A stretch of 64,000 nt of DNA, taken from Sipunculus nudus. Lineage: Eukaryota; Annelida; Sipuncula; Golfingiida; Sipunculidae. Positions 3,334 to 64,000 of the stretch are shown here, piece by piece. Position 1 is the first letter of the stretch; each line of letters starts with the position of its first letter. The stretch lies in assembly GCA_026874595.1 (NCBI GenBank), contig CM049316.1:24699839-24763838 (forward strand), in the 5' to 3' direction. The position numbers were made by a program, and so were the translations under genes. The notes below the pieces were generated by a model, which saw only the letters and a program-made list of their open reading frames with translations, had not been told where the DNA came from and made no database searches.

Positions 3334-4150
3334 ATGGCGGAGTCAGTGGAGGGGTACCCGACAGGTCAGTCCTTACACACATGATTGAAAGTGCAATGTC
3401 AGAAATGAAAGCGATAGTTAGAAACACTAACAGTGGAAGAACCAGGATAAACAAATTTCATTCTGATATGTTGGAGAAGCTGGAGTTTCCAATATAAGAA
3501 AACAAGCAAATAAAGCACGCATTTCTGAACTTTAAACAAGTGTGGGCACAATCAGTGGGGAGGTGGATAAAGTGCAAAGAAACAAAGACAATGACAACAC
3601 AATGATAAAGGGATTTCAGAAGGAAGACACTGAGCTAAAAACTGAAATCTTAAATAAAGACAAGCAATTAGATTTATTGCAAAACAAGTTGAATGAGGAA
3701 CAGAACGAAATAGAACGCAGAAATAAAGAACGGAACCTACGTATTTTTTTGAGTGAGAGAAGAGGCAGCTACAGACAATTGCAAAGAAATGGTGACCATT
3801 AATATTACAGACTGAAAATTACTTAGCGATCTTGACAACGACGCTGTCAGACAAAGAACAGAAAACGCACATAGAACAGGACGTCCTGGCGAAAGCCAAG
3901 ACAAATCATCGTCAAAATGCACAAAGGCCAGACCGAAACGAAATTCTAAAACGAAGTAAAATATTCTTAACAGGCGGCATAAGGTTTGTTGAGGACTTAA
4001 CTATCATTGATTACAAACTGAGGCAAACATTAAAGCCAAGAATGGAAGAAGAATATAATAAAGACAACTAAGTGCGGTTTTGGAGGGGACAGCTGATCCT
4101 CAATGGAAAAGCCGTCCAGTGAAGCCTCCAAAAGGCCCTCTTGTACTCGT
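3334..4150 (+). pseudogene. LINE ORF1 remnant (RNA-binding coiled-coil protein)
   Basis: Frameshifted copy of an L1-type ORF1. A heptad-rich Glu/Lys/Leu segment (3542-3745) matches the trimerising coiled coil; the following RRM-like and C-terminal regions are in at least two other frames (AHRTGRPGE, then ILKRSKIFLTGGIRFVEDL, then RFWRGQLILNGK near 4072-4105). Family role: nucleic-acid chaperone that coats the LINE RNA. Confidence 0.75.
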
Positions 4151-31057: not shown

Positions 31058-32250
31058 TCTAATTTCTGGCATGTACATAGGAACTATATAGTGGAATATT
31101 TATGGTAAATATGAGGAAAACCAGATAAGTGGTTTTGATATTAGGCAGTCCTGAAGTGTGAAAATAGGTCTTTAATAAAAAATTGAGGTTTTTCCTTAAT
31201 TTCTCAAAGGAACAAAGTTGCAAAGACCCAGTTTTCAGCTTGGTAGTAGATCTTGAGGACATCTAGTATTATGCAGAATTTTGGATTCCTAGGTCTTACG
31301 GTTTCAAAACGTGCAACATCTATGGCCGGACAGACGGACGGTCAGACAGTGGACCACGACTATAGCTCAGATGACTAACAGTCAGCTGAGCTAAAAAAAC
31401 ATTTCTTGGCCAAGGTTGATTTTTATATTTATGCAAATAAATTAAAAATATTGCAAAATTCAGTTTTAATAAAGTCATTTCCATTTTTCATGGTTAGTGA
31501 GTAAATATATTTCCTGATTTTTTTACAAAGTGCATTATGTGTGAGCCCATGACTTAAAAAATATAAAGCAATACTGACATAATATCTGGTATGATTAGAG
31601 GAAATATATAGAGGAACATGAAATATGATCAAAAACAGATCAGTGGTTTTTATATCAGGCAGCCTTGAATTAAGTGCAACAATGGGTTTTTAATGGAAAA
31701 ATGAGGTTTTTCCTTAATATCTCAAAGGAATGAATGTCATAGTGACTCGATATTGGATATGGTAGGAGATTTTTTAGACATCTAACTGTATGCCAAATTT
31801 GGTTTCATAGGTCCAAGAGTTTTAAATTATGCCATGTTCATGGCCAGATGGCCAGACAGATGGACAAGGGACCATGACTAACAGTCAGCTGAGTGAAAAA
31901 TGTGTGTATGTAATCAAGTTTTCAATATTTAAATATAAGGCCATATGAGCGAAAAAATTAATCCCATATTCCTGATTAACTAAGTAAATAATAGTTTTAT
32001 TCATATCAGGGGCCAGTCAACCTTAAGAGAAATGAATGAAATGTAAATAAAGAATTATCTCTCACTAAATCTTAAAATATGTCGGTGAGCACTTACATAA
32101 GTTTCTAATATTTTATAACATTTGAATATGAGGATTCAAATCCTGCAAATTTTTCAAGTCTCAACAAAAAATGAATACAGAAATTATAAGAATATTCATC
32201 TTGTTTATTAGTCCTGTGTATTGAACGGGTGTGTTGGGGGAGGAGAAGTA

Positions 32251-38800: not shown

Positions 38801-40569
38801 CTGTTAAAGGTCAGCATGCATAAATAAACATATTATCCGTTTCTGCTGCCCCCACAATGTTGCTCATTCATATGACTGTTTCTACATGCACTCTCTGTCT
38901 ATCTGTCTTTATCATTTCCATTTCCGGCAAGCGCGTGACCTCTGGTCATCTTGTTTTGATTTTCATCTTTCAAGAAATTAAAATAATACAATTTTGATAC
39001 AATTTCCTTTGTTATGTAGTACTTTTACCTGTTTAGCAAAAACACCCTGTTATTTTCATACTTTTCCATGGTCATATGACATTTTCACTGAAACATACAA
39101 TAAATGGTAAAAGAAAAGAACGCCAACCTGCAGTGATTTCTAAAAAAAAGAGCCTGAGAACCATACCTTTTTATTTTGTTGGCCTTATTTAGATATTTTA
39201 TGTCGAATAAAATTGTTCACGGATGGACAGAGCAGAACACTATACCTGATATGAAATGCATCACTCAGAAGCACCCTACTGTTGCAGTTAATCTCAAATC
39301 ATATCTCATCCCACCCCCACAGCAATATCCCAGCCATATACATCAAGTGTAATGGAATAATTATCCCCTGGAAGTGGGGTATGCAGGCAATGCTGTATTA
39401 AATGAGTTCCAGTGACCAACAGTGGGCTGCTTAGAACTAAGTTAACAATGCAAGTGAATACAATAGAGCCCCCCAAAAAAAATCAAGAAAGAACCCTGTT
39501 TCTGAGCTTATATTTTCAAATTTCATATTTTAACAGATAAAACCCTTATGTGTACCTTCTGTCAAAAGCAAACCAGCAGTGTGTTTACAGGAATAAAATG
39601 TGCTATGGTCAAAGTTGTGCAAAATGGAAGGTGCTGATCGCAAACTTATATATGCTATAAACTTGAAGAATTTACAATATTTTGATCTAATTTATTTCAT
39701 ACAATTAAATCTTGATTAAATAAAGTGTCTCAAATTTTGGATTCGTAAGTCAATTTCAAAATGTGCCAGTCTAATGAACAGACAGACAGACGCACAGATG
39801 ACATACAATTCATCATAACTATAGCTCAGATGACATTAAGTCATCTGAATTAAAAATTGTAATGTATATCAACAGTTTTTACAATGTTAATGTTTTATAG
39901 AGATCTTTGGTTATTTTTATCATTTTCAACTTGAATAGTGTTGCACATGATGTCTCTTGAATTCACTGATTTTTCAGATCTATACTATTGTATATTGTAG
40001 TTCATGAAATACACTATTTCAAAACATCTTGAACAGGAATAAGCATGATGATAACCAAGAGATGAGATCATTCATACAACTCCATTTGAATGCTGATGTA
40101 TAGTGAAATAAAGGTATTTTCTGCCTGGACAAGTGTGATGATTTTTAAACTTTCCCATCACACTATTGCATAAAACTTTTTTTTTTACATTAAGGCCATA
40201 ACCAGGAATCAAAATGAGGTGATTTTGCTTTTGTTGCATTTTGCGTGAGGTTTACCACACATTTCAGGTATTTACCTGTCACTAAAATGTTTATCCCATT
40301 TGAGAAAACAATATGCAATACTTCAGAATTCACAAGAAATCCTATAAAGCCACATATTTGACATGAAGTTCAAGGTCATCAGTTTTAAAACTCCTGCCAA
40401 AACTTAGAGAAAAAATTGTATCAAACATGATTTAAAATTAAACTATACTAAAAACGACATGGTGTTAATAAGGTAATCAACAGATAATCATAGTGCTTCA
40501 AGGCATATTTTTGCTGTGAAGCTGACAGAATATTGATCATGTAAAACAGTTTTGACCTAGGTTCTTGGG

Positions 40570-40775
40570 AGATTTTCCAAGGTCCTCCCACAAGGTTTTC
40601 TATTTTGAGAAGTTCCTAGGTAGTGAGAAGTTTCTAGGTTGAATGGTTACAATCTGTGCCCTGCTATGAACTATGAACTGTTGTGCCCCAGATGAAAACA
40701 CAAAAGGAGAAATAGTGCTAAATAGTGATAGATATAGCTCAGATGACTTACAGTCAGCTGAGCTAAAAATAATGT
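40570..40775 (-). mobile_element. Helitron-like family A/K terminal fragment
   Basis: Ends with ATAGCTCAGATGACTTACAG and TCAGCTGAGCTAAAAA at 40732-40770. The preceding GGTTACAATCTGTGCCCTGCT segment matches the K-type core. The other end was not found. Confidence 0.5.
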
Positions 40776-46085: not shown

Positions 46086-46199
46086 TCATTTTGTCAATAA
46101 ATGCATATTTTAGCTTTATGAGTATGTTTACCTGTAACCAAGCATCAATCAGTGTATTTCAATTAAAAGACCTAACCATGAGTATCAGTCTATGTTACA

Positions 46200-47890
46200 G
46201 ACACACTGTACAGTGACACAGTGTGCTCATCTTGTATTTCAAGGGTTAGGGTTTCACTTATATCTATATGAGAGCCATATTTTTAATATTGTGACACAGT
46301 ATGCACATCTTGTATTTCAAGGGTTACAGTTTCAGCCATATCTATGTGACAGGCACATTGTACAGTGACACAGTGTGCTCATTTGTATTTCAAGGGTTAG
46401 GGTTTACCCATATCTATGTGAGAGGCACATGGTACAGAGACAGTGTGCTCATTTTGTATTTCAAGGGTTAGGGTTTCACCCATATCTATATAACAGCCAT
46501 ATTTTTAATATTGTGACACAGTGTACTCATCTTGTATTTCAAGGGTTAAGGTTTTACCTATATCTTTATGACAGCTGTATTTTTAATATTGTGACACAGC
46601 ATGCTCATCTTGTATTTCAAGGGTTACAATTTCAGCCACATCTATGTAACAGGCACATTGTACAGTGACACTGTGCTAATCTTGTATTTTAAGGGTTAGG
46701 GTTTTATCCATATATATGTGAGAGGCACATTGTACAGTGACACAGTGTGCTCATCTTGTATTTCAAGGGTTAGGGTTTCACCTATATCTATATGACAGCC
46801 ATATTTTTAATATTGTGATACAGTATGCTCATCTTGTATTTCAAGGGTTAAGGTTTACACTCATATCTATGTGACAGGCACATTGTACAGTGACATGGTG
46901 TGCTCATCTTGTATTTCAAGGGTAGGGTTTCACTCATATCTATGTAACAGGCATGATCTACAGTGACACAGTGTGCTCATCTTGTATTTCAAGGGTTAGG
47001 GTTTCACTCATATCTATGTGACAGGCACATTGTACAGTGAAACAGTGTGCTCATCTTGCATTTCAAGGGTTAGGGTTTCACTCATATCTATGTGACAGGC
47101 ACACTGTACAGTGACACAGGGTGCTCATCTTGTATTTCAAGGGTAGGGTTTCACTCATATCTATGTGACAGGCACATTGTACAGTAACACAGTGTGCTCA
47201 TCTTGTATTTCAAGGGCTAGGGTTTCCCCATATCTATGTGACAGGCACATGGTACAGTGACACAGTGTGCTCATTTTGTATTTCAAGGGTTAGGGTTTTA
47301 CCCATATCTATATGACAGCCATATTTTTAATATTGTGACACAGTGTACTCATCTTGTATTAAAGGGTTAAGGTTTTACCTATATCTTTATGACAGCTGTA
47401 TTTTTAATATTGTGACACAGCATGCTCATCTTGTATTTCAAGGGTTACAATTTCAGCCATATCTATGTAACAGGCACATTGTACAGTGACACAGTGTGCT
47501 CATCTTGTATTTTAGGGGTTAGGGTTTCACCCATATCTATGTGAAAGACACATTTCTCAGTGATACTCATTCACTTTGATTCAGCCTTTTGAAATCAGTT
47601 CGGAAAAAGCTAAACAAAAGGCCTATTGGCCAGCAATATACTATTGTGAGTAGTGTATTCATCTTGTATTTCAAGGGTTAGGGTTTTTTTCATGTCTATA
47701 TGACAGCCACATTGTATTGTGAAACGGTAAGCTTATCTTGTATTTCAAGGGTTAGGGTTTCACCTATATCAATATGACAGCCAATATGACAGCTTTCACC
47801 TGTATATATGTGACAGGTATGTTTTACTGTGACATAGTGTGCTCTTTGTATTTCAAGGGTTAGGGTTTCACCCATATCTATGTGACAGGC
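46200..47890 (+). repeat. 75-bp minisatellite, about 21 units, two unit types
   Basis: Consensus GTGCTCATCTTGTATTTCAA, GGGTTAGGGTTT, CACCCATATCTATGTGACAG, followed either by GCACATTGTACAGTGACACA (type A) or by CCATATTTTTAATATTGTGA (type B). Unit lengths are 72-78 bp. A block around 46425-46680 recurs at about 47250-47505, offset 821 bp. The last three units (47650-47890) are separated by about 90 bp of other sequence and an irregular spacer. Confidence 0.95.
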
Positions 47891-49729
47891 TAGAGGACAA
47901 AAATGGCGGGGTAAGGGTGGATGAGGGGGCTTTCTGGCATGACATCTCACCTTTATGGGTTCTGAAAGGGAGCTTTTTTCAAGCAAGGTACTTATTCTGT
48001 GACCCAGCCAAGATGTTTCAGACAAGTTCAAGTAATTGCCCAAAAGGGTTAAATAGGCATTGGTAACATAGCACAGTATTTCCATAGATCCTGTTATGAT
48101 CATGAGAAATTACCATTTTGACCATTTTCTAATGTTATAACCTAAGAAACGCTGAACTAACTATCAATTAGGCTACAAATAATGAATTCACACAAAGAAT
48201 ATATGATGTGAACTCATGAACCCAAACTGAAACTCTATCTCTATGGTAAAGATTCATTTGGTAACCTTTGTGAGCAAGGCTTTGTATTAATAAGGTCAGA
48301 ATTAAACAAATATGTTGAAGGGGTTTATCAGTGCTAAGTTAAAACAGAATTTTTCTAGCTCATGTCAGGTGCTGTTAAAAGTATACTGAAAAGCTGACAA
48401 TCGGTAAGGTGTATATCATGTGACAGTATACTTGTAGGCCGATGAGGTGTTGTCAGAACTGATGAAAATATTTGCATCCTTATAGAGCTTTGAAGGGTGT
48501 TCATCACTGAAGGATGTAACAGCACTCTGACTGCAAGCACACTGGTTGTAGACTCTCTAATGTCAGAGGGTGCTACATGGTGACAATTGGTTTTGATTAC
48601 CTAGGGCACTTTACTGACCAGAACAAGCAACAGCCATGAGATAGCAAAGTACTTGTATATATTCTATAGATTACTGGTCTTTGATGACTAAAAGCGGTAA
48701 AATTATACTGCACATGATTGTGCTCATTCAAGCATCAAGTTGGTTGACCTTGCTATTGTTAGGGGATATAACAGAGATCAGCCACCCCCCCCCCCCCCAC
48801 CCAACAGGATGTAGGGCAACACCATCTTTCATCTTTGCATATGAACTTACTATCTCAGTTTCAAATTTTATACATTATTATGGTTCTGTGTGTAAATAAA
48901 CAGTATGTATGTCCAGGTGTGTATGTTAACTATAGTAAGAAAGCATGAGCAAACAAACGTCTGATACTGTGCTGTGGCAACAATTCACAAACAAGAAGCT
49001 CATTCCCCCTCCTGTATTGGCACATACCATACTACGATAAGAAAACACTATATTTCATGTATATTTAACATGCCTGCAATGCCTGGTATGTAAATAGGCC
49101 CCTTTAATGCCTTACATACATTTAACACACATATCAACAGATAAAATGTACAGAATTTTAAGTGTAGACAGACATTTTCTTTTAATATGATAAGGTGGAG
49201 GGAAGGGCTTTTGTCCTCTTTGTGTTAGGGGCCTTTGTTTGTACATCCCTCCACCACCCCATAATCAAAAGAACTTTAATGTTTTTCACCACCCAAAAAG
49301 ATTATTTGCATATTTATTCATTGCACTAGGTAATAATGGCCACTCATTTGAAATCCAAATAAACCTTTCACTGACTTTGGGTGGTTTACATGATCTTAAG
49401 GAATAATTGCCCAACAGAACAAGTAAACCCTATCTGGCTGCTATTCCTTACCACATGAAATGGCAAAACTTGTAATTAATGATATTTCAACTAGCTTTTG
49501 AGTAAATTAAACCAATTCTGAACAAAACTATTTAGTGTAAAAATAAAAAAAAACACACCTGTGATAACACTGGCATCACACAAATGAAATGTATTCAAAT
49601 TAAAGCAACTTTTTGAATTGGGAATTTGAATTGAATAAAAATTATTTGAATTGAACTGATATTTTTCTCCAGCACATTAAACTAAATCTGAACTGAAGTT
49701 TCATAAAATTTCTTGAATTGTAATTGAAA
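47891..49729. other. No gene recognised
   Basis: Open frames on the minus strand at 48540-48355 look mildly protein-like but have no domain or confirmed splice sites. A poly-C run is at 48784-48798. Confidence 0.4.
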
Positions 49730-50920
49730 CAAGGGACCCATGGGTCACTGTGCTCAGCTGAAGATGGCCTTGAAGGTAAAAATCTAAAATAATATCAAAT
49801 GGAGATAAAATGAAAGAGGAAGAGGTAATATAGGCCAAGGTTGGTTTATATGATTGGTTGGTATTGATGACCAAGAAACTGTTGCAAATAATATTTTGTT
49901 ACCTGACCATGTGTTTCCTAATGTTGAAACTGATGCATGTGAGCAGTTTGTGAACAAAAGATCTGTACTGTTACCATGATCTGACGCACATTAGTTGGCT
50001 TTTTGATCAACTGTTGATATTTCAGTAGTCTACACATTTGTTCCATTGAAGCTATTTTTTTAAATATATATTATTAAATAAATATGTATTTTTTATTTTA
50101 TGAAATATATACAGTTGAAATATAACTTATTAACAACATACATACAGGGCAAACAAAGCCTGATCTCCAATTCTGCTGAGGCAGGAAAATAATGAACAAA
50201 TGTTTGTATTAGATCCTCATTTTTTTATCACATCAATTATTTTTTATTATAAGTTTATATTTCTATACATTTCCAAAATAACATATATCTGAATATAAAA
50301 GTTGATTCATAATTCTCAATTGCATCATCATAAATCACAATCTTGTCAGATAACACCAAATCATGAATATGTGTTTATTTATTTTTTACCACAAAAATAT
50401 ATCTTTTAAATCTGCAAAACAATAAATATATAAAAATAATACTTGATTTAGATTTCACAATTATAAACTGTGTCTTTATTTATCCATAATGTGCTTCATA
50501 TTTTATAAATTGAAGCATGCTGGTGGGTTTAATTATATTTGTTAAAATCATTTAAAAGAAAATTGATTTCTTTAAAAATGCTGCATTAACACAACATGGC
50601 ATCTTCTGGATTACACCTTGAATTACTTTTTCAAGGAAAGTTTCTGTATATTGGAGTGGAAACAGCATTATAATTCAGGAGATACAGTGAAAACAATAAC
50701 AATTACTGCACAACACTTAATTCATGGGTTGTTTTTTTTTTGGGGGGGGGATTGGGATGGTGATATGAGAATAACTGTGCGCCTGTCACAGCAGGGGATC
50801 TCCCCAAGTGACTGTAACAAATTAGAAACCCTGGCATGGCTGGCTTCCAGTGACCTGGAGTGGGACCCTGCATGTGTAATCTATAATCAAAGCAAATGAC
50901 TACAATAGAGCCTCAAGGAA

Positions 50921-52559
50921 CAAGGGACCCATTGGTCACATCGCTCAGCTGAATTTTGATAAATATTAGTAACTGCAAAATATTTTTATTTCTTTTGGTT
51001 TTTCATGTATATTATCATTAGAAAAGCTATGAGAAAATGGCCCTGCTAAAATGAAACTCTGTAAATTATAGAATAATGGACATGAGCTAAACCATTTAGT
51101 GATGCACCAAGGGAACAAATAGGCCTACAGTAAGTGTTATATAAAAGTAACATTTCATAAACAAATAATGTGTGAAGGAAATTAAGTTTTCAAAAGTTAA
51201 ATATATGGCCATATGAGTTAAAAATTAATCCCACAAAGTTTGACCAATATTCCTAATTTTAATACTAAGTTAACAGTGTTATTCACACCTAGGCCCCGCC
51301 AACTTTAAGAGATATGAATGAAAGGCTACAAAGTATTTATATTTTCTTAAATCTTGTCAATTAGCACTTACATTAGATCCTAATATTTGATCACATTTGA
51401 ATATTAGGATTAAATTCCTTAAATTTTTTTCTTAAAAAAAAAAAAAACAATATTGACCACGTCTCATCAAAAAGAATATATTTAATATTAAAATTATAAG
51501 ATTCATCTTGTTTATTAGTCCTGTGTATTGAAGGGGTGGGTGGGGGGAGGGGTCTCAGTTGTTACTGCTCGTTGCTGAAAAAATGTTAATTTTAAGATTC
51601 ATCTAGTTCATAGTACAGGTCTGTTAACAGAATGGGGGGGGGGGGGGGTTGCCAGAGAAAAAGGCTCCCTGTGGTATGGTCTTAACTGCGGACAGCCTGA
51701 TCAAGCTCAACTCAGTGGAGAGACTGCTTGCCCTGGTGATGGGATTGCATAACATTATGCCAACAGCCTGGGGAGCATAGAGATGTGCACTGAATGACCT
51801 ACAGTCACCTAAGTGGACTGCTTGACAATGTAAGGGAATACAGTAAGAGCCTCCAAAAAAATTAAATAACTAGCCTAATTTTGCAGCTTTTATTTTAAAA
51901 TTTCAGATTTTAACAGATTAAATCCTTATGTGTACATGCTGTGAAAATTAAATCCACAGTACTTACAGGAAAAAAACGTGCCGTGGCCAAAGTTGGGCAA
52001 AATTTAAGGTACCAATTTTATATTTTTGCCAATATTCAAAAAAATTTAACAGATTTTGATCTAATTTTTGTTATACAATTAAATTTTGATTAATTAAAGT
52101 TGTATTACTGGAAAAAAGTCCCTACCTTTAACACTTTTGGTCTTAAGTGACCGAATATCTTCCCTGATTTTTTTACAAAGTCCATTATGTTTCGGCCCAT
52201 AACTTTTTTAAATGAAACAATACTGACTTAATTTCTGGCATGTACATAGGAACTATACAGAGGAACATTTATGGTAAATATGAAGAAAACCAGATGAGTG
52301 GTTTTGATATTAGCCAGTCCTGAAGTGTGAAAATAGATCTCTAATAAAAAATTGAGGTTTTTCCTCAATATCTCAAAGTCCTATTGACCCAATTTTTGGC
52401 ATGGTAAGAGATTTTGAGGACATCTAACTGTATGCCAAATTTCAGATTCGTAGGTCCAACGGTGTCGAAACGTGCCAGTCTTACAGATGGACATCCGGAC
52501 GGACAATGGACCACAACTATAGCTCAGATGACTTATAGTCAGCTGAGCTAAAAATTCGA
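50921..52559 (-). mobile_element. Helitron-like family A, copy A7, complete (1639 bp)
   Basis: Best full-length copy. On the minus strand: A/TC start at 52559, subterminal GCTCAGCTGA near 52545-52536, complement of the GGAC microsatellite near 52500, then the palindrome GACC-AATG-GGTC (50937-50926) and CTTG (50924-50921) followed by T. Removing it joins GCCTCAAGGAA to TAACTAGCCTAATTTT, as in the uninterrupted locus near 51866. No ORF of note, so non-autonomous. Confidence 0.8.
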
Positions 52560-53134
52560 TAACTAGCCTAATTTTCAAGCTTTTATTTTAAAATTTCAAA
52601 TTAAAACAAATTTAATACTTATGTTTACATACTGTGAAAATTAAATCAATGGTGTACTTACAGGAAAAAGCGTGCCATGGTCAAAGTTGGGCAAAACTTT
52701 ACGTACTTATTTTATTTTTATGCTAATAACTTAAAAAATTTACAAAATTCAGAACCAAATACGGGTAAACAATTGAATCTTAATTAAACATAGTTATATA
52801 CTTGGGGAAAATAGACAATTTTCTGGCATACATGTACATAGGAACTATATAGAGGTATATTTATGGTAAATATGGAGGAAAAACAGATAAGTGGTTTTGT
52901 TATTAGACAGTCCTGAAGTGTGAAAATAGCTTTTTAATTAAAAGTTGTGGTTTTCCTTAATTTCTCAAAGGAACAAAGTCAAAAAGACCTAGTTTTTGGC
53001 TTGGTAGTTTTTTGTATTCCTAGGTCTTACGGTTTCAAAACTTGCCACGTCTACACAGGGACGGATGGACAGATTGACTAACAACAGACAATGGATCACG
53101 ACTATAGCTCAGATGACTTCCCTTACGAAAATGA

Positions 53135-53460
53135 AAAGTACTCACATATATGTGCCTTATATGTCCCTTATAAGGGCCTTATATGTCCCTTATAAGGGAC
53201 ATATATTCCCATATAAATGCTGTGTATGTGAGTTATATTTATTTTGCAGCTACATGTTTAGTCAGGCATTGTTATATGTGAGTTATAAGGGAGTTGTATG
53301 TTTTTTATTTGCCAGTTAAAAAAAAAAAAAAAGTTATAAGGGAGTTGCGCATGAGGCCATTCTGTATATTTCATTTATATGTGACTTGTATGGGAGATAT
53401 AAGGGAAGTGCACATGAAGGAGTTCTGTATATGTCAGTTATATGTCAGTTATAAGTTTAT
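53135..53460. repeat. Left subterminal array of element H
   Basis: CCTTATATGTCCCTTATAAG repeats exactly (53153-53202) and is followed by looser GTTATAAGGGAGTT and ATATGTCAGTTAT units. Confidence 0.85.
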
Positions 53461-56400
53461 ATACTTTGAGGCTTACTGTTCTACAAGATAGGACTTACAC
53501 ATTTTCCAAGGGAACACAAATGCTGCAGAAACTTCTAAGTCTCAGCTCCATTATTGTTCTGAGAAAATGAATTTTAATTGAATAATCAATACTGAAGAAG
53601 TATGTTAAAATGGGTATCAAAATAACCAGCTTCCTCAGAACTTTATGTTTATTAGAAAAATAATACTATAAATAAAGATTTTTTTTTTCATCTGATTTAT
53701 ACTTTAAGAGGTGTAAACTATAGTAACCATGCATCCAGAAAAACATCATTTTCTCAAAATACAATACATAAAATTAATTTAACTATATTTCACGTTGTTT
53801 ATGATAACCGCCATTGATAATTATAAGAAACAGTAATTCTTTTGGAATGTTGTGTATATTAAGTACTTCAGCATCCAAATGCAATTGATAACTACTTCAT
53901 AAATACAGAACAAAGGTTACTCAGATGTAGTGTGCCACTGACCAATTATGGTCACATAAGCATTAACCTAATATCATATTGGTTTTAGAAACAGCTAGAA
54001 CAACCACGCTTTCCAGCTGTAAAATATATTGCCAAAACTCAACAGCATTGATCAAAGCATATGTACTTAAAAAAAATATGTGTCTGCATTCTTATTGTGA
54101 CAATAACCAGCATTCTTCAGGTGCACTAATCAGTAATTTTCACAAGTATATGTTACACCCCCCCCCCCCCCAGCAGACAAGCTTGCTGTACAGGCACTCT
54201 CTACAATTGACCTTTGACCTTACTGTACCCTGCCCTGGAATTGTGCATGGTTATGTCACATGGATGCTTTACAGGCTGTGCACATCAGCAGGACAAAGGC
54301 ATGCAGATTCAGTTACATCTGAATCAGTGATAACATCCGGTAATAGTTAAGGAGTACCAATACACACTTTGAGTGACAAGTTCTTTGTCAAGCAGAAGGG
54401 GAATGTATCGCTGAAAATGTCTCATTGGTGAGTAATCTTGCATTACTTCAGTTATTTTTGCATATTAAACCAGTGATTGCATAAAGATGACTTAACCCAT
54501 CTTGGTTTGCCCTGCAAAAACACAATCTGTGCGTTTCAAGATAACATTTCCTAATTGGTGGCCCATTTTACAAAATACAACATTTTTGGACAAAAAGCTG
54601 ATGCTGTTGCCCCTGTAAAAATGACAATTTGCATGTTCTATACTACAACAGGAACTGAGCTAAGAACAAATCCTTTTCACTGGTGCTATTTGCAATTGGG
54701 TGTGGAAAAATCAAGAGTAAACAGCAGGCCCCAAATTTACATATTGATGTAATTTCTGAATGTCCCCAACCTGTGAAGAGATTATGAATCAACCTACATA
54801 AAGCTTCATCAGATCAGCATACAAATGTTATGAGTACCACATACTACCATTTAATTTGTTGGACCTTTGGCTATTGACCATGTTCTTATTTAGCTGAACT
54901 CTGGGTCATGAAAAGAAAAAGCTTCTACACATAAAGCCCTACAAGGTAATGATGTCCTCTTCATTTTCGAAATTGACTTGAATTTTTCTGTCTTGCTAGA
55001 GTGCATAAAAGTTATAATATGGTAAAAAATTATTATTTATATAATGCTCATAAGTTTTTCTTTCAGCCAAAGTAAACATTAAACACTGTTGATCATTGCT
55101 GATTTTACAGCCACTGTCTCAATTTGGGTGAATGCTTTTTACAAAATTGAAGAGGGGTTTAATGTACTCAACCAAAACATTACAGCTAATCAAATATTTT
55201 TTAACTATTGGGGTCTATCACACAAAAGCTCCTAAATTAAGCTTTAATTTGGTAATATGCCTTTCTACTTGTCATTTCCATATACTGTAAACACCACTTA
55301 ATTTACAATTTTAAACATAAACACACTATGTTTGATAACAATCCATAAGCCATTCATATGTAGAATTTAATCTGAATGTGACATCAGAAGGTCAAGAACA
55401 CTCTTACATAGGTTATGAGCACTTTAACTTTAATGGGCTTGGTCCTGTGACTTTTTTTTCATTTGAGGTTTCTTTTGAAATGTTCACTTTCATTACAAAA
55501 GGAAAAGGCATAATGATTTGGGAATTCGTTTCACTAAGGATCAGATGATTGCATCATATACTATTTTGATTCCCAAAGAGAAATCAAATTCAATTTACAG
55601 GGCAATCAAAAGTGGATTTTTTGCCACCTTGAATAATTTCTTTTTAAGTAGTAGTGCCATTTCACCTTGAAAGGGTCAAGACATCATTTTGAACATTACT
55701 GACCACCAAGATATCACTGATGTACTGTTTTAGTTAAATGATATGATGTGAGGTCCTGTTTTATGTTTATTTGTCTACTTAAATTTCAAAATAGGCATGG
55801 CTCAATGTTCATAATTATTTAATTCCAACAACCTTTGTTTCTATGATTTGTAATGGTTTCTTTACTTTTCATACAACCAGTATGAAGAAATGGTGCTGAA
55901 AGTATAAGGAAAACCTAAATATGTCCAGCCCTTGCAAGAATTTTCTGGTAAGCATATTCAGTTTATCATATAAAGTAACATTTAAATCTTTAAGCAAATG
56001 GGCAATATTATGATTTATAGGGTTTTTTTTTATCTAATAGCTGGACCATACAATATTTGAAGTGCAAATTTAGTGTTTAACATTATGGTGATAGGGATAT
56101 TCATATGACTGCTTACATGTTAAAATTGTTTCAACTGAGTAACCTACTTTCTGAGCCTATGAGCATCTTTAGGCCACAATGTCTATCCTGTGACCAGTAT
56201 ATTTGATAATCTTTAATGTTTGTATATACTCTGTATAACTAGAAAACTCTTCCTGTGTTAGTAATTGATAAGTCCAACTGTATTTTCTTATAATCCTTAA
56301 TTTTAAACAGGCATATTTCCAGAACACTTAAAACCCCTTTATAGAGAGTAGATTTACTTTCAGTGAAATCTTTTCTTTTTTTTACTTGTGTTGCCTCCAG

Positions 56401-56974
56401 AAAATTTAAATGTTAAAAAGCACTACTAAGCATCAATGTCAAAAGTTTATCTTTAAACTTATTTGATTAAATAATTTATGTGAGCAGTAATGACTATATG
56501 TGTATACTTAGACTGGTAACATTTGTTTTTGCAGGTCAAACAGGAGGGGACTGAAAAGGATTTAGTGTGTGGCAAGGGTGTATATTTCCTTTCAGCCTTA
56601 ATTCCCTAAAATGACAACTATCTCCTATCTGACAGCACCAGGGAGTTTTAAAAATCTTATGAAAATATTATTTTCAGTTAATAAATGTGTAAATAAACAT
56701 TTATTTTGGATATTTTGTTTTCATACTTTTTTGTTTCATGTGTTTATACATCCATATGACTGAATGAAGTTGATGACCCCCGGTGTGATCGAGGCCAGCT
56801 TTAATTTCAAGGAACTGCACAGTGAAGGAAGCTCACCACACACACACAGACCTTAATTACTATTGTCTACCATAATTTCTTGTGGAATAAAGAAAAGAGT
56901 AAACACCATTCAAAACAGAACAACAGACATAATTGAGCTAATGACAAACAGCACAGAAGGTGCATACACTGGAC

Positions 56975-57352
56975 TTATATGTGAGTTATATGTCACTTAT
57001 AAGGGACATATATGGCACTTATAAGGCACATATATGGCACATATATGGGAGTAATAAGGCACATATATGGGAGTTATAAGACATATATTGGACATATATG
57101 GGAGTTATAGGGGACATATATGGGACATATATGGGAGTTATAGGGGACCTATATGTGGAAGCCTTATAAGTGACATATAAGGCCCATATATGTTACATAC
57201 AAGGCTCCTATCCAATTTGCATATCAAATATATATACCAGACATATATTTGACATATATTGGTGCTATAAGGTTGGACATAAGGGACATATATGGCACAT
57301 ATATGTACCTTATATGTGCCATATAACTTTCACATATATGGCACTTATAAAA
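56975..57352. repeat. Right subterminal array of element H
   Basis: About 25 tandem words of the type GGACATATATGG(C/G)A and GGGAGTTATAAGG, overlapping palindromes around ATATAT and TTATAA. Related in sequence to the array at the left end. Confidence 0.85.
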
Positions 57353-57385
57353 ATTTTCGGTAAGGGTTATAGTCAGCTAAAAATT

Positions 57386-58265
57386 GAATTGACTCCAAGT
57401 CCGTTATCAAAGATGACAAAGCAGTGTTTTAAACGTATGTCTCAGGAGAGGCATTATACATGGCTATGCCCTGTTTCCCAATCCTAATTGATACATTAAA
57501 TAAAAATACGGTTTCAAGAAACATTATGGAGAGAACCAAACTTGAGACAACAGATGAATAGTACCCTAGCTTCTGTGGCATGTATGTACATTTGAATGTG
57601 ATGACATTTTTTATTCCACTGCATTGGACATCTTGAGGGTGGAAAAAGAAGTGGTTAACTTTACAATACCTGTATTAGAAGGATGCACGGCCTATGTTCC
57701 TCAGGCATGTCCATAACTGATAATACCATGTCCTTGTCCCTGTACTCTCTTCTGGTTACTGATACGCTAAGGCCCCATATATGAAGTAACTTTGAGCAAA
57801 GGAAGACCATGCAAATATTTAAAAAATGCTAAAAAAGATGTAGCTTATCTTATTTAAAAATACTATTTTCTTTCATGAATATGGATTGTAACCACAAGGA
57901 ATCAAGAAGCTATGTGTTACCGTCAATGTTGCTGCACCTCATAACTAAATCATACTGGTCTTCTCTAGCATTCCCCTGCAGTGATCTGACATTCTGGCAA
58001 CATTAGAATCTGAAATGGGAGAGACAACTAAGTAATCAAGTAAAGATTATAACTCAAATTATATTAAAAGTCAGAGGAACTACTTTCAACAATTTGATTA
58101 TTATTTTATTGTTTTGATTATAATAATAATTCATTCTGAAGCTTCATTAGAGGTGAAAAAAGGTAACATTTTATATTTATGTTTATATATGGTTATAGAT
58201 ATAAAGTTGCGGATCCAGTTATTCAAAATCAGGGGGTGAGGGGGCGTTTTGTTTAATATATACAC

Positions 58266-58342
<77 letters not shown>

Positions 58343-59616
58343 TGTATATACATATATATATATATATATACATATGTAAAAGTATATGTATATATATATA
58401 TTTTAAGGCTATGAAAATTATAAATATTTGTTTTTATTAAAGGTCTGATTCTGCACTTAGGCAACCATTAAAAAACGAGAAGCTTATTCCTAATCATGGA
58501 CAGGATTATACAAACTGAAGCATACTATTATAAGATGAAAACACTATATTACAGGTATATTTAAAAAGATTTGTTTGCATTACAGCCCTGTAGCTAGATG
58601 TTATGATACTGGCAAAGAGCAGACTGTTCACTGAATTCAACCAAACTTGACTGAAAATTGACTAAAATTAACTAAAACTGACTGAAATTGACCGAAAGTG
58701 ATCATTGACCTTAATTTCATCAAATGCACTGTTGCATAGTTTATCACTACTAATTTTGATTTGTTCTGATGAATATTGATACGTACAAGTATCAATATTC
58801 TTCAAAAGACCAATTTATGAGAGCATAAAATTCAGGCGAGAAACTGAAAGGGTAGGGGTTTAAGATTTTCTTTCACAGAGACTATTTTAAAAAATCAATC
58901 ATTTTTATTCTTATGTTTCTTCAGACAGATAATGTCAATTTTATTTTAAATTTAATATTGTAAAATAAATTATAAGTGTTTGTGGAGTCTATAAATGTGT
59001 TCAGATAATGGCTGAATGTCCAATGTATAGATTATTTGCATTTGACAGGTTTCTCTCAAATTAATATATATGTGTGTGTGTGTGTGTGAGAAGAGAAGTC
59101 AGCATGAAATGAAAATCATAAATCAAAAGGAATATTATCATTTTTAACAAATGGTATGTCAGTGTGCACAAAATATATTTAAAATAAATGGCCATGCAGT
59201 ACATGTTGCAAACTGCATGTTACACTGTTGGATTTCATAACCAAACTAATATGTTGGAGAGGAAATACTTAAATATAATGAGTCTAATGGTACATTTGGT
59301 TATTTGGCAGAAAGACAGTTAGTATTAAGTTAAGAGTCCTTTTTTATTTAAAAAAAAAATAAATATTGAAGTATTATAGTAAAATATCATAAGTTGACAG
59401 CATATTGCTGTTCAGATGAAATGCCTAGCATATATAAAAGCAGGTGTAACAGACTGCTTAAAACACATGAGCAGCAGTACATGACTTGGAGTGGTTTCTA
59501 TGTTTATCCTGACCTGAGCAGGGAATCATGATTATCACCAGATATATCTTAGTTCTATAAATGCTAAAAAATAGAAAAAAGAAATGTTTATTTTGCATTT
59601 TCTAAAATTTTACAAA
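57386..59616. other. No gene recognised
   Basis: AT-rich; contains the long (AT)n tract at 58269-58345, AACTGAAATTGACCGAA-like short repeats at 58645-58700 and a small (TG)n tract near 59072. Confidence 0.5.
58269..58345. repeat. (AT)n microsatellite
   Basis: About 36 AT units, the longest in the window, followed by further short AT runs to 58400. Confidence 0.97.
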
Positions 59617-59618
59617 AT

Positions 59619-59650
59619 GCGCTGAGTGCTGTGACCAATGGGTCCCTTGT
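59619..59650 (+). mobile_element. Helitron-like family A 3' terminus, opposite orientation
   Basis: GCGCTGAGTGCTGTGACC then AATGGGTCCCTTG/TTTT: palindrome GACCAATGGGTC and CTTG followed by T. It is the only family-A terminus seen in plus orientation. The body to its left is too decayed to delimit. Confidence 0.6.
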
Positions 59651-59979
59651 TTTTAATGTATTTTTCAGGGTTTGCAGGTTTTACCCACTACTTAGGGTTG
59701 GCACAATCTTCCTGGAGGGAAGGGAAGGGATGGAAAGAAATATTTTCTTTCGGAAGGGAAGAAATACTTTCTTCCCACAATTTCTTCCCAGGGAAGAAAT
59801 AAGATTCACAACATACCTGTATTTCAGGTTGTTCAAATGTCATTTTGGCTTGTTATATCAGTGCAAATCAGAATGATTGATTTCACACCCTTTGGTAAAT
59901 AAAGGACATGCAAACAAACCATGTGGATGGGACTGGTGTGTCATTTTATTATGGGGCTGGATGATGTAGTCTTCAGCTG

Positions 59980-60300
59980 AGTAATCAAGATGAATTCAAC
60001 TTGAGTCCACTCAGTCCATTGGTGTTGTTGTTGCTGAAGGCTTGTCTTGAGCTGTGTGATTAGGATGAACTCAAAATGAGTACATATCCTTCAGGGGTGG
60101 AGGTCGGCTTGTACAGTTGAGCTGGTTTTTAGTTAAGTAATAAGGATGAACTCAACTTTAGTTCATAACCTTCAGGGGTGGAGGTCGGCTTGTACAGTTG
60201 AGCTGGTTTTTAGTTAAGTAATTTGGATGAACTCAACATTAGTTTATACCCTTCAGGGATGGAGGTCGGCTTGTACAGTTGAGCTGGTCTTTAGCTTAGT
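59980..60300 (+). repeat. 81-bp tandem repeats, three units plus a partial
   Basis: CTTCAGGG(G/A)TGGAGGTCGGC starts at 60089, 60170 and 60251; each unit continues TTGTACAGTTGAGCTGGT and ends in a GATGAACTCAAC stretch. A diverged partial unit precedes them. Confidence 0.9.
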
Positions 60301-60384
60301 AACTGGCAGTCCAGCCATGTCTTCTGGTAGCTCACCTACTCCATCCAACTTATCAAGGTCATCAACTCGACACAGGCCTACCAG

Positions 60385-60765
60385 CTTCTGTGGCTCAGGG
60401 GTAGAGTTCAGGACTCGAAGCCAGGAGATCATGAGTTTGAATCTAAGCCAGGCGGTGAGATTTTATCACGGTTGGCTCCCACCCAGGGTTAGCGCTGTGA
60501 AAGCTAAATGGGGAGACTTTGCCTAACAGTCATGTTTCACTGAAAAATGAGTGCACCTTTCGGGGGTTCCTTGGTGTTGTGACCAAGCAATGGGGATGAC
60601 AAACACCAAGGACCCGCAGGAGTGTTACACCGAGCCCTGTTGACACCAGGATAACTGGGTATAAGCCCCTGTCATGTAGTCCAGAATAGAACTCTGCAGA
60701 TGTACTTAGTAATAGTTAAGCAAGCATAAGGTTACCTCCACTAAATAAAAAATGTAAAAAAAAAC
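60385..60765 (+). mobile_element. tRNA-derived SINE-like unit (plus orientation)
   Basis: Box A TGGCTCAGGGGTAGAG (60391-60406) and box B GAGTTTGAATC (60433-60443) are 42 bases apart, as in a tRNA. A body of about 300 bp and an A-rich tail (60743-60764) follow. The anticodon arm is not convincing, so not a functional tRNA gene. Confidence 0.6.
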
Positions 60766-61405
60766 TCCACTGGACAGCAGCAGCGAGTTATAGATTTGTT
60801 GGCAAAGCGTAACCATGAGTACATCACAGCTGCCATACAGCCTTCAGACAAAGTCTGCACCATATCCAGCTTCTACTTCTCAGCTATGTCTTTGCCTGCT
60901 GTATCCTGGTAAATGGGAATAAAGAATGGGAGCCCTACTCTACCTGCAGGGTTTGCGGAGTTAGTATTGAACCTCCACACAGCATATGCATCCTCCGTAT
61001 CCATAAAACGGGCGGTCTCAACCATGGGTGTGGTTCAGTCAAAACTTCGAAAAGGTTCATTGTGGAACATACAAACAAGCTTGTATCTACTTACAGGATG
61101 CTGCGTAGAAACCATGTTTTGGACTATTGGATTCACTGTGTTCTATGAAATATAAGTCTTAACTATCTGAGTGTGTAAATATTGAACAACAATGTGTGCT
61201 TAATGAACAACTGATATATATTATTCAGTGGTTCTCTGTATATATGCTTATTTACTATGTTATATATTATTAATAAAAGGTTGTGGGAACCTGTGGGAAA
61301 AAGAGTTTCTTCCCTGACTTTTTTTTCTTCCCAGAAATTTCCTTTTCTTCCCTGAGAAGGGGAAAATACCTATCTTCCCAACAGGTTTGCCAACCCTGTA
61401 CTTAG

Positions 61406-64000
61406 TACAACGGTAAAAACCTGGGTTTAACCCAGGTTGGGGAAAAATAAGTTTTACCGGGGTTTTACCAAAGTTTTCATAAAAAATTTCATCAAAGTTT
61501 AAATAAAATGCTCCTTTTTTTTCATACTCGATGAAAATTGACACAGGTAACATGTAAACAGGTAAACAACCAATTCATTTAATGTTTTTATCATGGTCAA
61601 TTTCGGTCAATTTTACTCCATTTCAGTGAATAGTCTGTCCCAGCCAAGGACAGACTATTCTGTTCTACCTAGCCCTAGCACCTGTGCTCTCTTACTACGC
61701 TAAGCTGTGCAAGAGCCCTAGAAGATGATTTGAGGAAACTGGTGACATTCCACATGACAATTAAATTCTAATATTTCGTCTAAAAATGTCATATTCGTTA
61801 GGAAATAAAGATATTCTAATCAAATACGCATATAACATACCATTTAGACAGTGTTTGTCCACTTCAAATGTTGATTAGAAGAATATGTATTATCCTATAT
61901 AAACGGTGATACACAGGGAACGATGTGTGCTCTGGGTTTCCCCCAGCCACAGCTGGCCGGCAGCCGCCTGTGTAACCAGTGGTAACGGGCCGTGTTGGCT
62001 CAGTGAGCAAAGGTCAGGCAGTTCATTGTTTCAGATTCTGAGACAGTTTCAAGAGCAAGGGTTGCAAAGTTTTAAAAGTGAGTCTTGTTTACATACTAAA
62101 ACATAATATTTATCTGAATTTCTTGGTCATTCGAATAAAGTACTATATCTCACTCAGATTACTTACAGTTTCCTTGTCATAAACGCAATATTTGATTTTA
62201 CACGATTTTTTTCCGACAAGGGTTTGAAGTTCTCCAGTTTACTCTGAAGCTTTTTATGCGGTATCCAGAGTCCTGGATACCGCCGCATTTAATGCAGTTA
62301 TGTTCTACCCTGCACTTCTAGGGATATGGTCTTTGACTATGTCCGGGTTGGCTGTAATTGCCCTAAACCTTTGTGGTGGAATCAACAACTAGGATTTTCC
62401 TTTCATGCGTAATTGTTTATGCAGACAGCTAGCAGCGCGAATTGGAATATTGTGTCTTTGGACGAGGCAATCTAAACCAAAGACATACATTCATAAAACT
62501 TGACCTGAGCGATAATAAAAGATCGAAGAAACTTTCTTATCATATGGTCATTATTACTCAATTTGAAGAGAATATTTTTATGGGTTTTCGCATACCTAAG
62601 AAAACAGTGATGTGCCTGAAGACATTAGCTGGTTACATTGGCCTAGATGTGCCTATTGTCATACTATATACTTACCGAAGGAGCTAACGACCACGTCCTG
62701 CCTGCCCGCAGATTCATATTTCCCGCCAGCACAAAGTAAATGCCGAAATCGTAACCTCCTATCATATCCAAATATTTTCTTTTAAACTTGGACGATAGGT
62801 GCTTTGAAACTTTTTACCCGCCAAATTCACAAGTTTGTTACGCCTGTAGACATGGGTAGGAAAATATATATGAAAAAGTGTCAGGTTCATTTTATTTATC
62901 GTCTATTTATAAGCCACCTTCCCCAGATGGAACCACTCTCCACATCATGAATAATGACTTAGAATGACACACACACACACACACATCTCGTTGTCCATGC
63001 AATCACATAAATTATAGCAACAGGTTATAAGTAAAAAGCCATATGTATTGTATTTAATAAAGTCCCCCCCCCCTTATAAATAGGCCAATGTCTGATCCAT
63101 ATGAACTTTTTTTATAAGAGCAAAATATGGATGTCATATAAAAGCGGAAATGTGCCATATACGAAACAATAAAAAAAATTATCTTCATTTTGAGAGGAGG
63201 CTAGCAACACACAGTGACACATAGGCCTTCATCAAACATTGGTTATGTATTACGCCCACAATTAAGGAAAATTATGTTCAAATATACATCACTGAGTGCT
63301 GGTATAGACCATAAAGTTATATAAATAAAGTGTCAACTTATCTTAAAGTTAGGGTTGGGGAATTGAATCAGGTATAATGTTTTAAAAATAAGATATATCA
63401 TGTTTCCAGTTTAGGTTTAATTAATTCTAATCCAGATTTATCTTTATAATGTATAAATCATTAAAATTTTCTTAAAAATAAATGACATTTTCAGACTAAA
63501 TTTAATAAAATTATACTATAAATACTGTCATGAAGCACTACAGCGATTTTTAACAAACATTTAATTTTTCAACAAGGACAATGACACACGAACATGACAT
63601 AAGACATAAAGATACCCTTGTTACAAATAAAACCAGAACTAAAAATAAGACAGCAGACAACTAACTGAAAAACATTATATGACAACAAAAGTCATAAATG
63701 AACTGACCAATTCATTATTGACAAAATTTCACTCATAGTCACCAAGGATTGATTTGCTACAAAATTTTATTAATACATATAAAGACAAATGTCTTCATAT
63801 AAACTGTTATATCTGTAACAAACACAAAAAAAAACCCTTAAAATAGATTACAAACTGTTACTTCAGTAACTCAGGTGGATAATCTTCCCAGTTTCTCACT
63901 AATTTTCCTCAATAAATCATATAATCTCATATTTTGTGAAATGTATAACACATAACCTGCATATTATGTATTATGTATGTATATTTCTATATGTGTCACA
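61406..64000. other. No gene recognised
   Basis: AT-rich, with a (CA)n tract at 62970-62984, a poly-C run at 63064-63073 and an 81-codon open frame at 62442-62687 without a recognised domain. GC-richer sequence at 61920-62010 was examined for a tRNA and did not qualify. Confidence 0.4.
62256..62287. repeat. Short inverted repeat
   Basis: GCGGTATCCA, six-base loop, TGGATACCGC; the stem extends with a two-base bulge to ATGCGG/CCGCAT. Confidence 0.7.

Follow-up and report, generated by a model that had tools for sequence, protein, structure and literature searches.

The 4,247-bp element at positions 53120-57366 of the window (the whole 64,000-nucleotide stretch of Sipunculus nudus DNA analysed here, G000:C11:24699839-24763838) is very probably a non-autonomous DNA transposon of the CACTA/EnSpm superfamily, of the animal TRC type. 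Three features together lead to this assignment: terminal inverted repeats beginning with CCC, a 2-bp target site duplication (18 of 21 paired insertions) and a Transposase_21 domain (PF02992) in a full-length copy at C12 that has the same ends. The C12 gene is known from pieces. Repeated subterminal motifs, a feature of plant CACTA/EnSpm elements, are also present.

Boundaries and subterminal arrays of the window element

The element is a discrete insertion in the window sequence. Its inverted ends read CCCTTAC(C)GAAAAT, as the preliminary description had stated, and neither CCCTTACGAAAAT nor CCCTTACCGAAAAT has a further exact match anywhere in the window. Insertion-free copies of the flanking repeat occur in the window at 52232-52544, 31063-31387 and 40733-40759, with a further uninterrupted, more diverged copy at 39754-39849. 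The empty site at 52232-52544 reads ...GATGACTTATAGTCAGCTGAGC... (longer extract GATGACTTATAGTCAGC), and those at 31063-31387 and 40733-40759 are similar. Since the empty site has a single TT and the element has TT on both sides, one TT became two. These uninterrupted copies bear out the earlier claim of a 4247-bp insertion with TT on each side and a clean empty site. The repeat at the four places, which ends about GACTATAGCTCAGATGACTTAYAGTCAGCTGAGCTAAAAA and has self-complementary parts, is the target of the window element; similar sequence borders the inserts in two other copies, L081 and L082.

The description of the element as coding-free also holds. Its longest ATG/GTG/TTG frame is 123 aa, and a Pfam search with the six read-through frames of 53460-56970 gave nothing better than a match with E 0.11.

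Dense palindromic arrays had been noticed at both ends, and word counts agree with this. The left 341 bp contain 5 CWTATAWG words and the right 406 bp contain 17, while the 3.5-kb core is free of them. The 59.75 kb of window sequence outside the element has 5 such words. Dinucleotide shuffles (1,000 for each array) gave means of 0.10 (maximum 2) on the left and 0.45 (maximum 3) on the right. Neighbouring WTATAW words are exactly 11 bp apart in 23 of 39 spacings over both arrays and 22 bp apart in 4 of 39. The 11-bp phase is clearer in the right array (11 bp in 16 of 25, 22 bp in 2 of 25) than in the left (7 of 14 and 2 of 14). The layout is kept in the independent copies L080, L081 and L082, which have 5-8 CWTATAWG words on the left, 17-19 on the right and 0-1 in between.

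Table 1. Features of the element and its target site in window coordinates.
Feature	Positions	Strand	Basis
Left TT of the 2-bp target site duplication	53118..53119	.	empty-site comparison
Left terminal inverted repeat CCCTTACGAAAAT	53120..53132	+	independent copies likewise begin CCC
Left subterminal array: TATA-centred palindromes with partial 11-bp phasing (15 WTATAW, 5 CWTATAWG)	53120..53460	+	kept in L080-L082; diverged form in the C12 coding copy
Interior of the standard 4.2-kb form, non-coding	53461..56960	.	frame and Pfam negatives; whole element 86% identical to L080
Site of a non-LTR-like retrotransposon piece in longer copies of the window lineage; window copy without the piece	56912..56925	.	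copy comparison
Right subterminal array with predominant 11-bp phasing (26 WTATAW, 17 CWTATAWG)	56961..57366	+	word counts; layout kept in L080-L082
Right terminal inverted repeat CCCTTACCGAAAAT (reverse complement)	57353..57366	-	186 genomic right ends with <=2 mismatches
Right TT of the 2-bp target site duplication	57367..57368	.	empty-site comparison

A coding copy with the same ends

With all 25 candidates scored, the genome contains 7 PF02992 matches. The match at C12:5842402-5842803 (51.8 bits) lies in a 549-aa open frame without stops; Transposase_21 was confirmed there with E 2.8e-14, together with DUF1258 at E 1.4e-9. It is located 10.5-11 kb to the left of an exact family right end at C12:5853357, the flank of which begins with TT. 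Reading C12:5838900-5841300 placed the left end at C12:5839470, with GGCTT before the junction and CCCTTACGAAAAC after it. The pattern TTCCCTTACNNAAATG, which hits 56 places compared to 21 for the reversed control, had missed this end, as its 13th and 14th bases differ. The coding copy thereby measures 13,888 bp (C12:5839470-5853357) and has TT on both sides, a 2-bp match expected by chance in about 7% of mispairings. Longer relatives had been proposed as the place to look for an internal transposase, and this copy contains one; the window copy is without PF02992.

The left array of the C12 copy is homologous to the first 533 bp of the 4.2-kb element (72%, E 5e-83) and aligns with 4.2-kb elements from base 1 at 72-75%, and the last 58 bp of the copy are identical to those of the window element. 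Used as a genome query, the C12 left end finds itself once at 100%; the other 39 of the best 40 of 428 candidates are at 73-75%, 37 of them from base 1. The 4.2-kb interior has no match in five sampled interior pieces of the C12 copy, and in the sequence read, co-linear similarity between the two is confined to the left ~1 kb (element positions 1-551 and, weakly, 907-970). This suggests that the 4.2-kb form could be derived by internal deletion, for the left ~1 kb at most. On the opposite strand of the C12 copy we found open pieces with splice-like borders (L084 and L085). They have no Pfam match, and they suggest a putative second gene.

In the genome as a whole, 37 places are transposase-like (all 62 candidates scored). 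The C12 place is the only one of these within 15 kb of the 228 family ends collected from partial lists, with a chance expectation for any such place of 0.18. The next nearest, both weak, are C8:28055389 at 20.6 kb and C16:3852123 at 37 kb from collected ends. Further Transposase_21 genes at G000:C8:57457989, C2:44916520 and C5:65958723 have open frames of 858-973 aa, are 40-49% identical to the C12 piece and all lie more than 60 kb from the 228 ends. A tblastn search of the transposase piece in plasmids gave no match.

The preliminary description had proposed a non-autonomous derivative of an undescribed DNA transposon superfamily. A separate superfamily of this kind would have the C12 transposase between two of its ends by coincidence or nesting, which is consistent with only 1 of the 37 transposase-like places falling between collected ends and with the C12 left end being a singleton among the best 40 of 428 candidates. 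Against this, the C12 ends are correctly oriented with TT on both sides, the left array is homologous from base 1, the last 58 bp are identical, and the ends and the duplication length independently fit the TRC elements as published in PMC1636069. We therefore consider this alternative improbable. Independent insertions uphold the first part of the proposal, a non-autonomous DNA transposon; the undescribed superfamily was rejected, as the sole coding copy found contains PF02992. Likewise, no family was thought to combine such ends, duplication and arrays, and here the CCC repeats and the 2-bp duplication match animal TRC elements as described in PMC1636069 and PMC4298943.

A mobile family and one passively amplified insertion

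The proposed genome search for the inverted 14-bp ends found 196 places with the left pattern and 186 with the right pattern at <=2 mismatches, and none for either reversed-pattern control. Compared by eye, 13 of the 14 right ends read have a flank unlike the right flank of the window copy, which L033 has. The right end of L040 is GGA, not GGG, and L039 sits inside sequence resembling the left-flank repeat of the window copy, at another point. All six diverged left ends begin with CCC and have other flanks, one of which L048 and L049 have in common. Among four further left ends, also compared by eye, L058 and L059 have other flanks and L060 has the main flank, while L057 adjoins the right end of another element. 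L057 (G000:C6:70601092) begins directly after GGTAA of that right end and appears to have inserted into the terminus of a member of its own family.

Pairing drew on the first 100 of the 196 left and the first 100 of the 186 right matches. A partner right end within 25 kb was found for 59 of the 100 listed left ends (on 58 right ends), and 41 had no partner among the matches listed. Of these pairs, 38 are 4,169-4,259 bp long, 10 are shorter and 11 are longer (one of them of the window lineage), giving a modal length of 4.17-4.26 kb for paired ends among the matches listed. Apart from L081, L082 and the window lineage, the longer pairs span 6.9-14.6 kb. L080 is an independent 4.2-kb copy, 86% identical to the window copy over the whole length. 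The longer copies L081 (6.1 kb) and L082 (6.5 kb) were considered as carriers of a transposase and rejected: their inserts have no Pfam match better than E 0.038, and the insert junctions carry the GCTCAGATGAC/GCTCAGCTGAC repeat. Independent insertions confirm that the family is mobile.

An exact 2-bp duplication is found in 18 of the 21 paired insertions compared to 30 of 420 mispaired combinations (7.1%). The duplicated sequences are AT, TA, AA, AG, TG, AC, GT, CA and TT. Two of the three remaining pairs have altered ends, and the third, C3-2930027, has AGA on both sides, as would suit a duplication of 3 bp. Accordingly, the duplication of the family is 2 bp of variable sequence; a fixed TT target, after the TT duplication named in the preliminary description, is refuted by these nine different sequences. 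The length of 2 bp would also suit a derivative of ISL2EU/PHIS or Tc1/mariner, but ISL2EU is described as duplicating AT (PMC4482050) and Tc1/mariner in general TA (PMC10045372), each of which accounts for only 3 of the 18 matching pairs, and such an origin is highly unlikely.

The window copy itself has a different recent history. In the 1.43-Gb genome (153 contigs), the 40 best of 432 candidates from a left-end search were scored, and the 20 best-scoring other copies were compared as 10-kb stretches. All 20 have the left flank of the window copy, and all 19 with the right end inside the stretch have its right flank; the right end of L016 is beyond its 10-kb stretch. Nested insertions and gaps aside, the 20 copies align with the window at roughly 94-98% along the fetched DNA. 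Two copies extended to 30 kb match the window co-linearly (~96%) from 46189 up to its last position, and one another over 23 kb (94%). From the common flanks and the extended co-linearity it follows that the window copy is one insertion amplified passively inside a repeat of >20 kb, and the left flank common to 20 of 20 close copies makes the window empty site one amplified event. Window positions 46189-64000 and beyond are part of this dispersed repeat, which is rich in satellite arrays (74-bp units within the window, periods of about 340 and 315 bp beyond it).

A retrotransposon piece, or part of it, is present at element position 3793-3806 in 12 of the 20 close copies (L011, L013, L015, L016, L018, L019, L021-L023 and L025-L027). 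In L026, the copy tested for the domain, the piece contains a reverse-transcriptase domain (RVT_1, E 2.2e-33). The 14-bp overlap at 3793-3806 looks like the target duplication of the piece, which we read from its sequence as probably non-LTR. Its internal deletions at recurring points are useful for ordering the amplification. The extra 2-4.5 kb of longer window-lineage copies is this piece, and a transposase there was rejected.

If the 4.2-kb stretch were immobile and no more than a conserved segment of a larger repeat, the same left flank in 20 of 20 and the same right flank in 19 of 19 close copies would be explained. For the family, this reading is refuted by independent copies whose flanks differ and which have 2-bp duplications; it can hardly be correct for the element, and it is true only of how the lineage of the window copy recently multiplied. 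Trapped in a large repeat, an insertion can thus mimic a recent transposon burst.

Relation to known elements and a possible mechanism

Animal TRC elements of the CACTA superfamily are described as having inverted repeats that start with CCC and a 2-bp target duplication (PMC1636069), within the 2-4 bp given for CMC elements overall (PMC4482050). CMCT lineages are reported to end in CA..TG in most cases (PMC12730594), whereas the present termini are CCC..GGG as in TRCs. As presented in PMC1636069, SmTRC1 of Schistosoma mansoni and the Tribolium and Aedes TRCs resemble the present family in their CCC inverted ends, inverted repeats of 10-54 bp and truncated copies. Transposase_21 is common to these elements and the present coding copy. 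For SmTRC1, the same source gives a 2-bp target duplication in 7 of 14 copies, as in the present family, and a tandem-repeat region that can be likened to the arrays described here. Points of difference from the elements of that source are the ends, which here read CCCTTACSGAAAAT, the length of the coding copy (13.9 kb, compared to 4.5, 5.2 and 9.2 kb there), a coding-free 4.2-kb form as the most frequent among the pairs listed, and palindromic arrays at both ends that largely keep an 11-bp phase. Spongebob / EnSpm-4N1_HM of Hydra, assigned to TRC/CACTA in PMC4298943, is alike in CCC ends and 2-bp duplication and differs in end sequence.

For plant CACTA elements, PMC2613891 describes TNPA binding to subterminal repeats and deletion forms that can be moved in trans. 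En/Spm and soybean Tgmt* as described there are alike in having short inverted repeats, subterminal motifs in direct and inverted orientation and trans-mobilised deletion forms. The arrays of Tgmt* are unequal between the ends, as here, with 12 stem-loops on the right and 2 on the left. Unlike the present family, Tgmt* has a 3-bp duplication and CACTA ends, and the likeness of its motifs is one of layout.

By analogy with the plant TNPA sites, the arrays of the TRC-type element would be sites for an accessory protein. A C12-type transposase would bind the 13-14-bp inverted ends, and an analogue of plant TNPA, possibly from the second gene of the long copy, would occupy the palindromic words of the arrays. 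With a spacing of 11 bp, many of these sites would lie on the same side of the helix, and the proteins bound there could pair both ends for cut-and-paste transposition. The window copy would supply cis sites only; it was probably moved in trans and later multiplied passively within the larger repeat.

We infer that a transposase of the C12 type moves the 4.2-kb copies. The analysis found a single coding copy with family ends. Its left end differs by about 25% from those of the non-coding copies; it may therefore not be their direct helper, and may instead be a relative of the true helper. More tentatively, and with considerable doubt, the family could represent an animal branch of CACTA/TRC whose two phased arrays of palindromic CATATATG/CTTATAAG TATA words in 11-bp steps serve as filament-like sites for a dedicated accessory protein. 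This protein would come from a spliced second gene of the 13.9-kb copy, and the whole would be an independently arisen counterpart of the plant TNPA system.

Finding the coding partner thus places a striking 'orphan' element in a known superfamily. With hundreds of ends, one coding copy found and conserved phased arrays, the family offers an animal case for testing what subterminal arrays do in CACTA transposition, a role described for plants.
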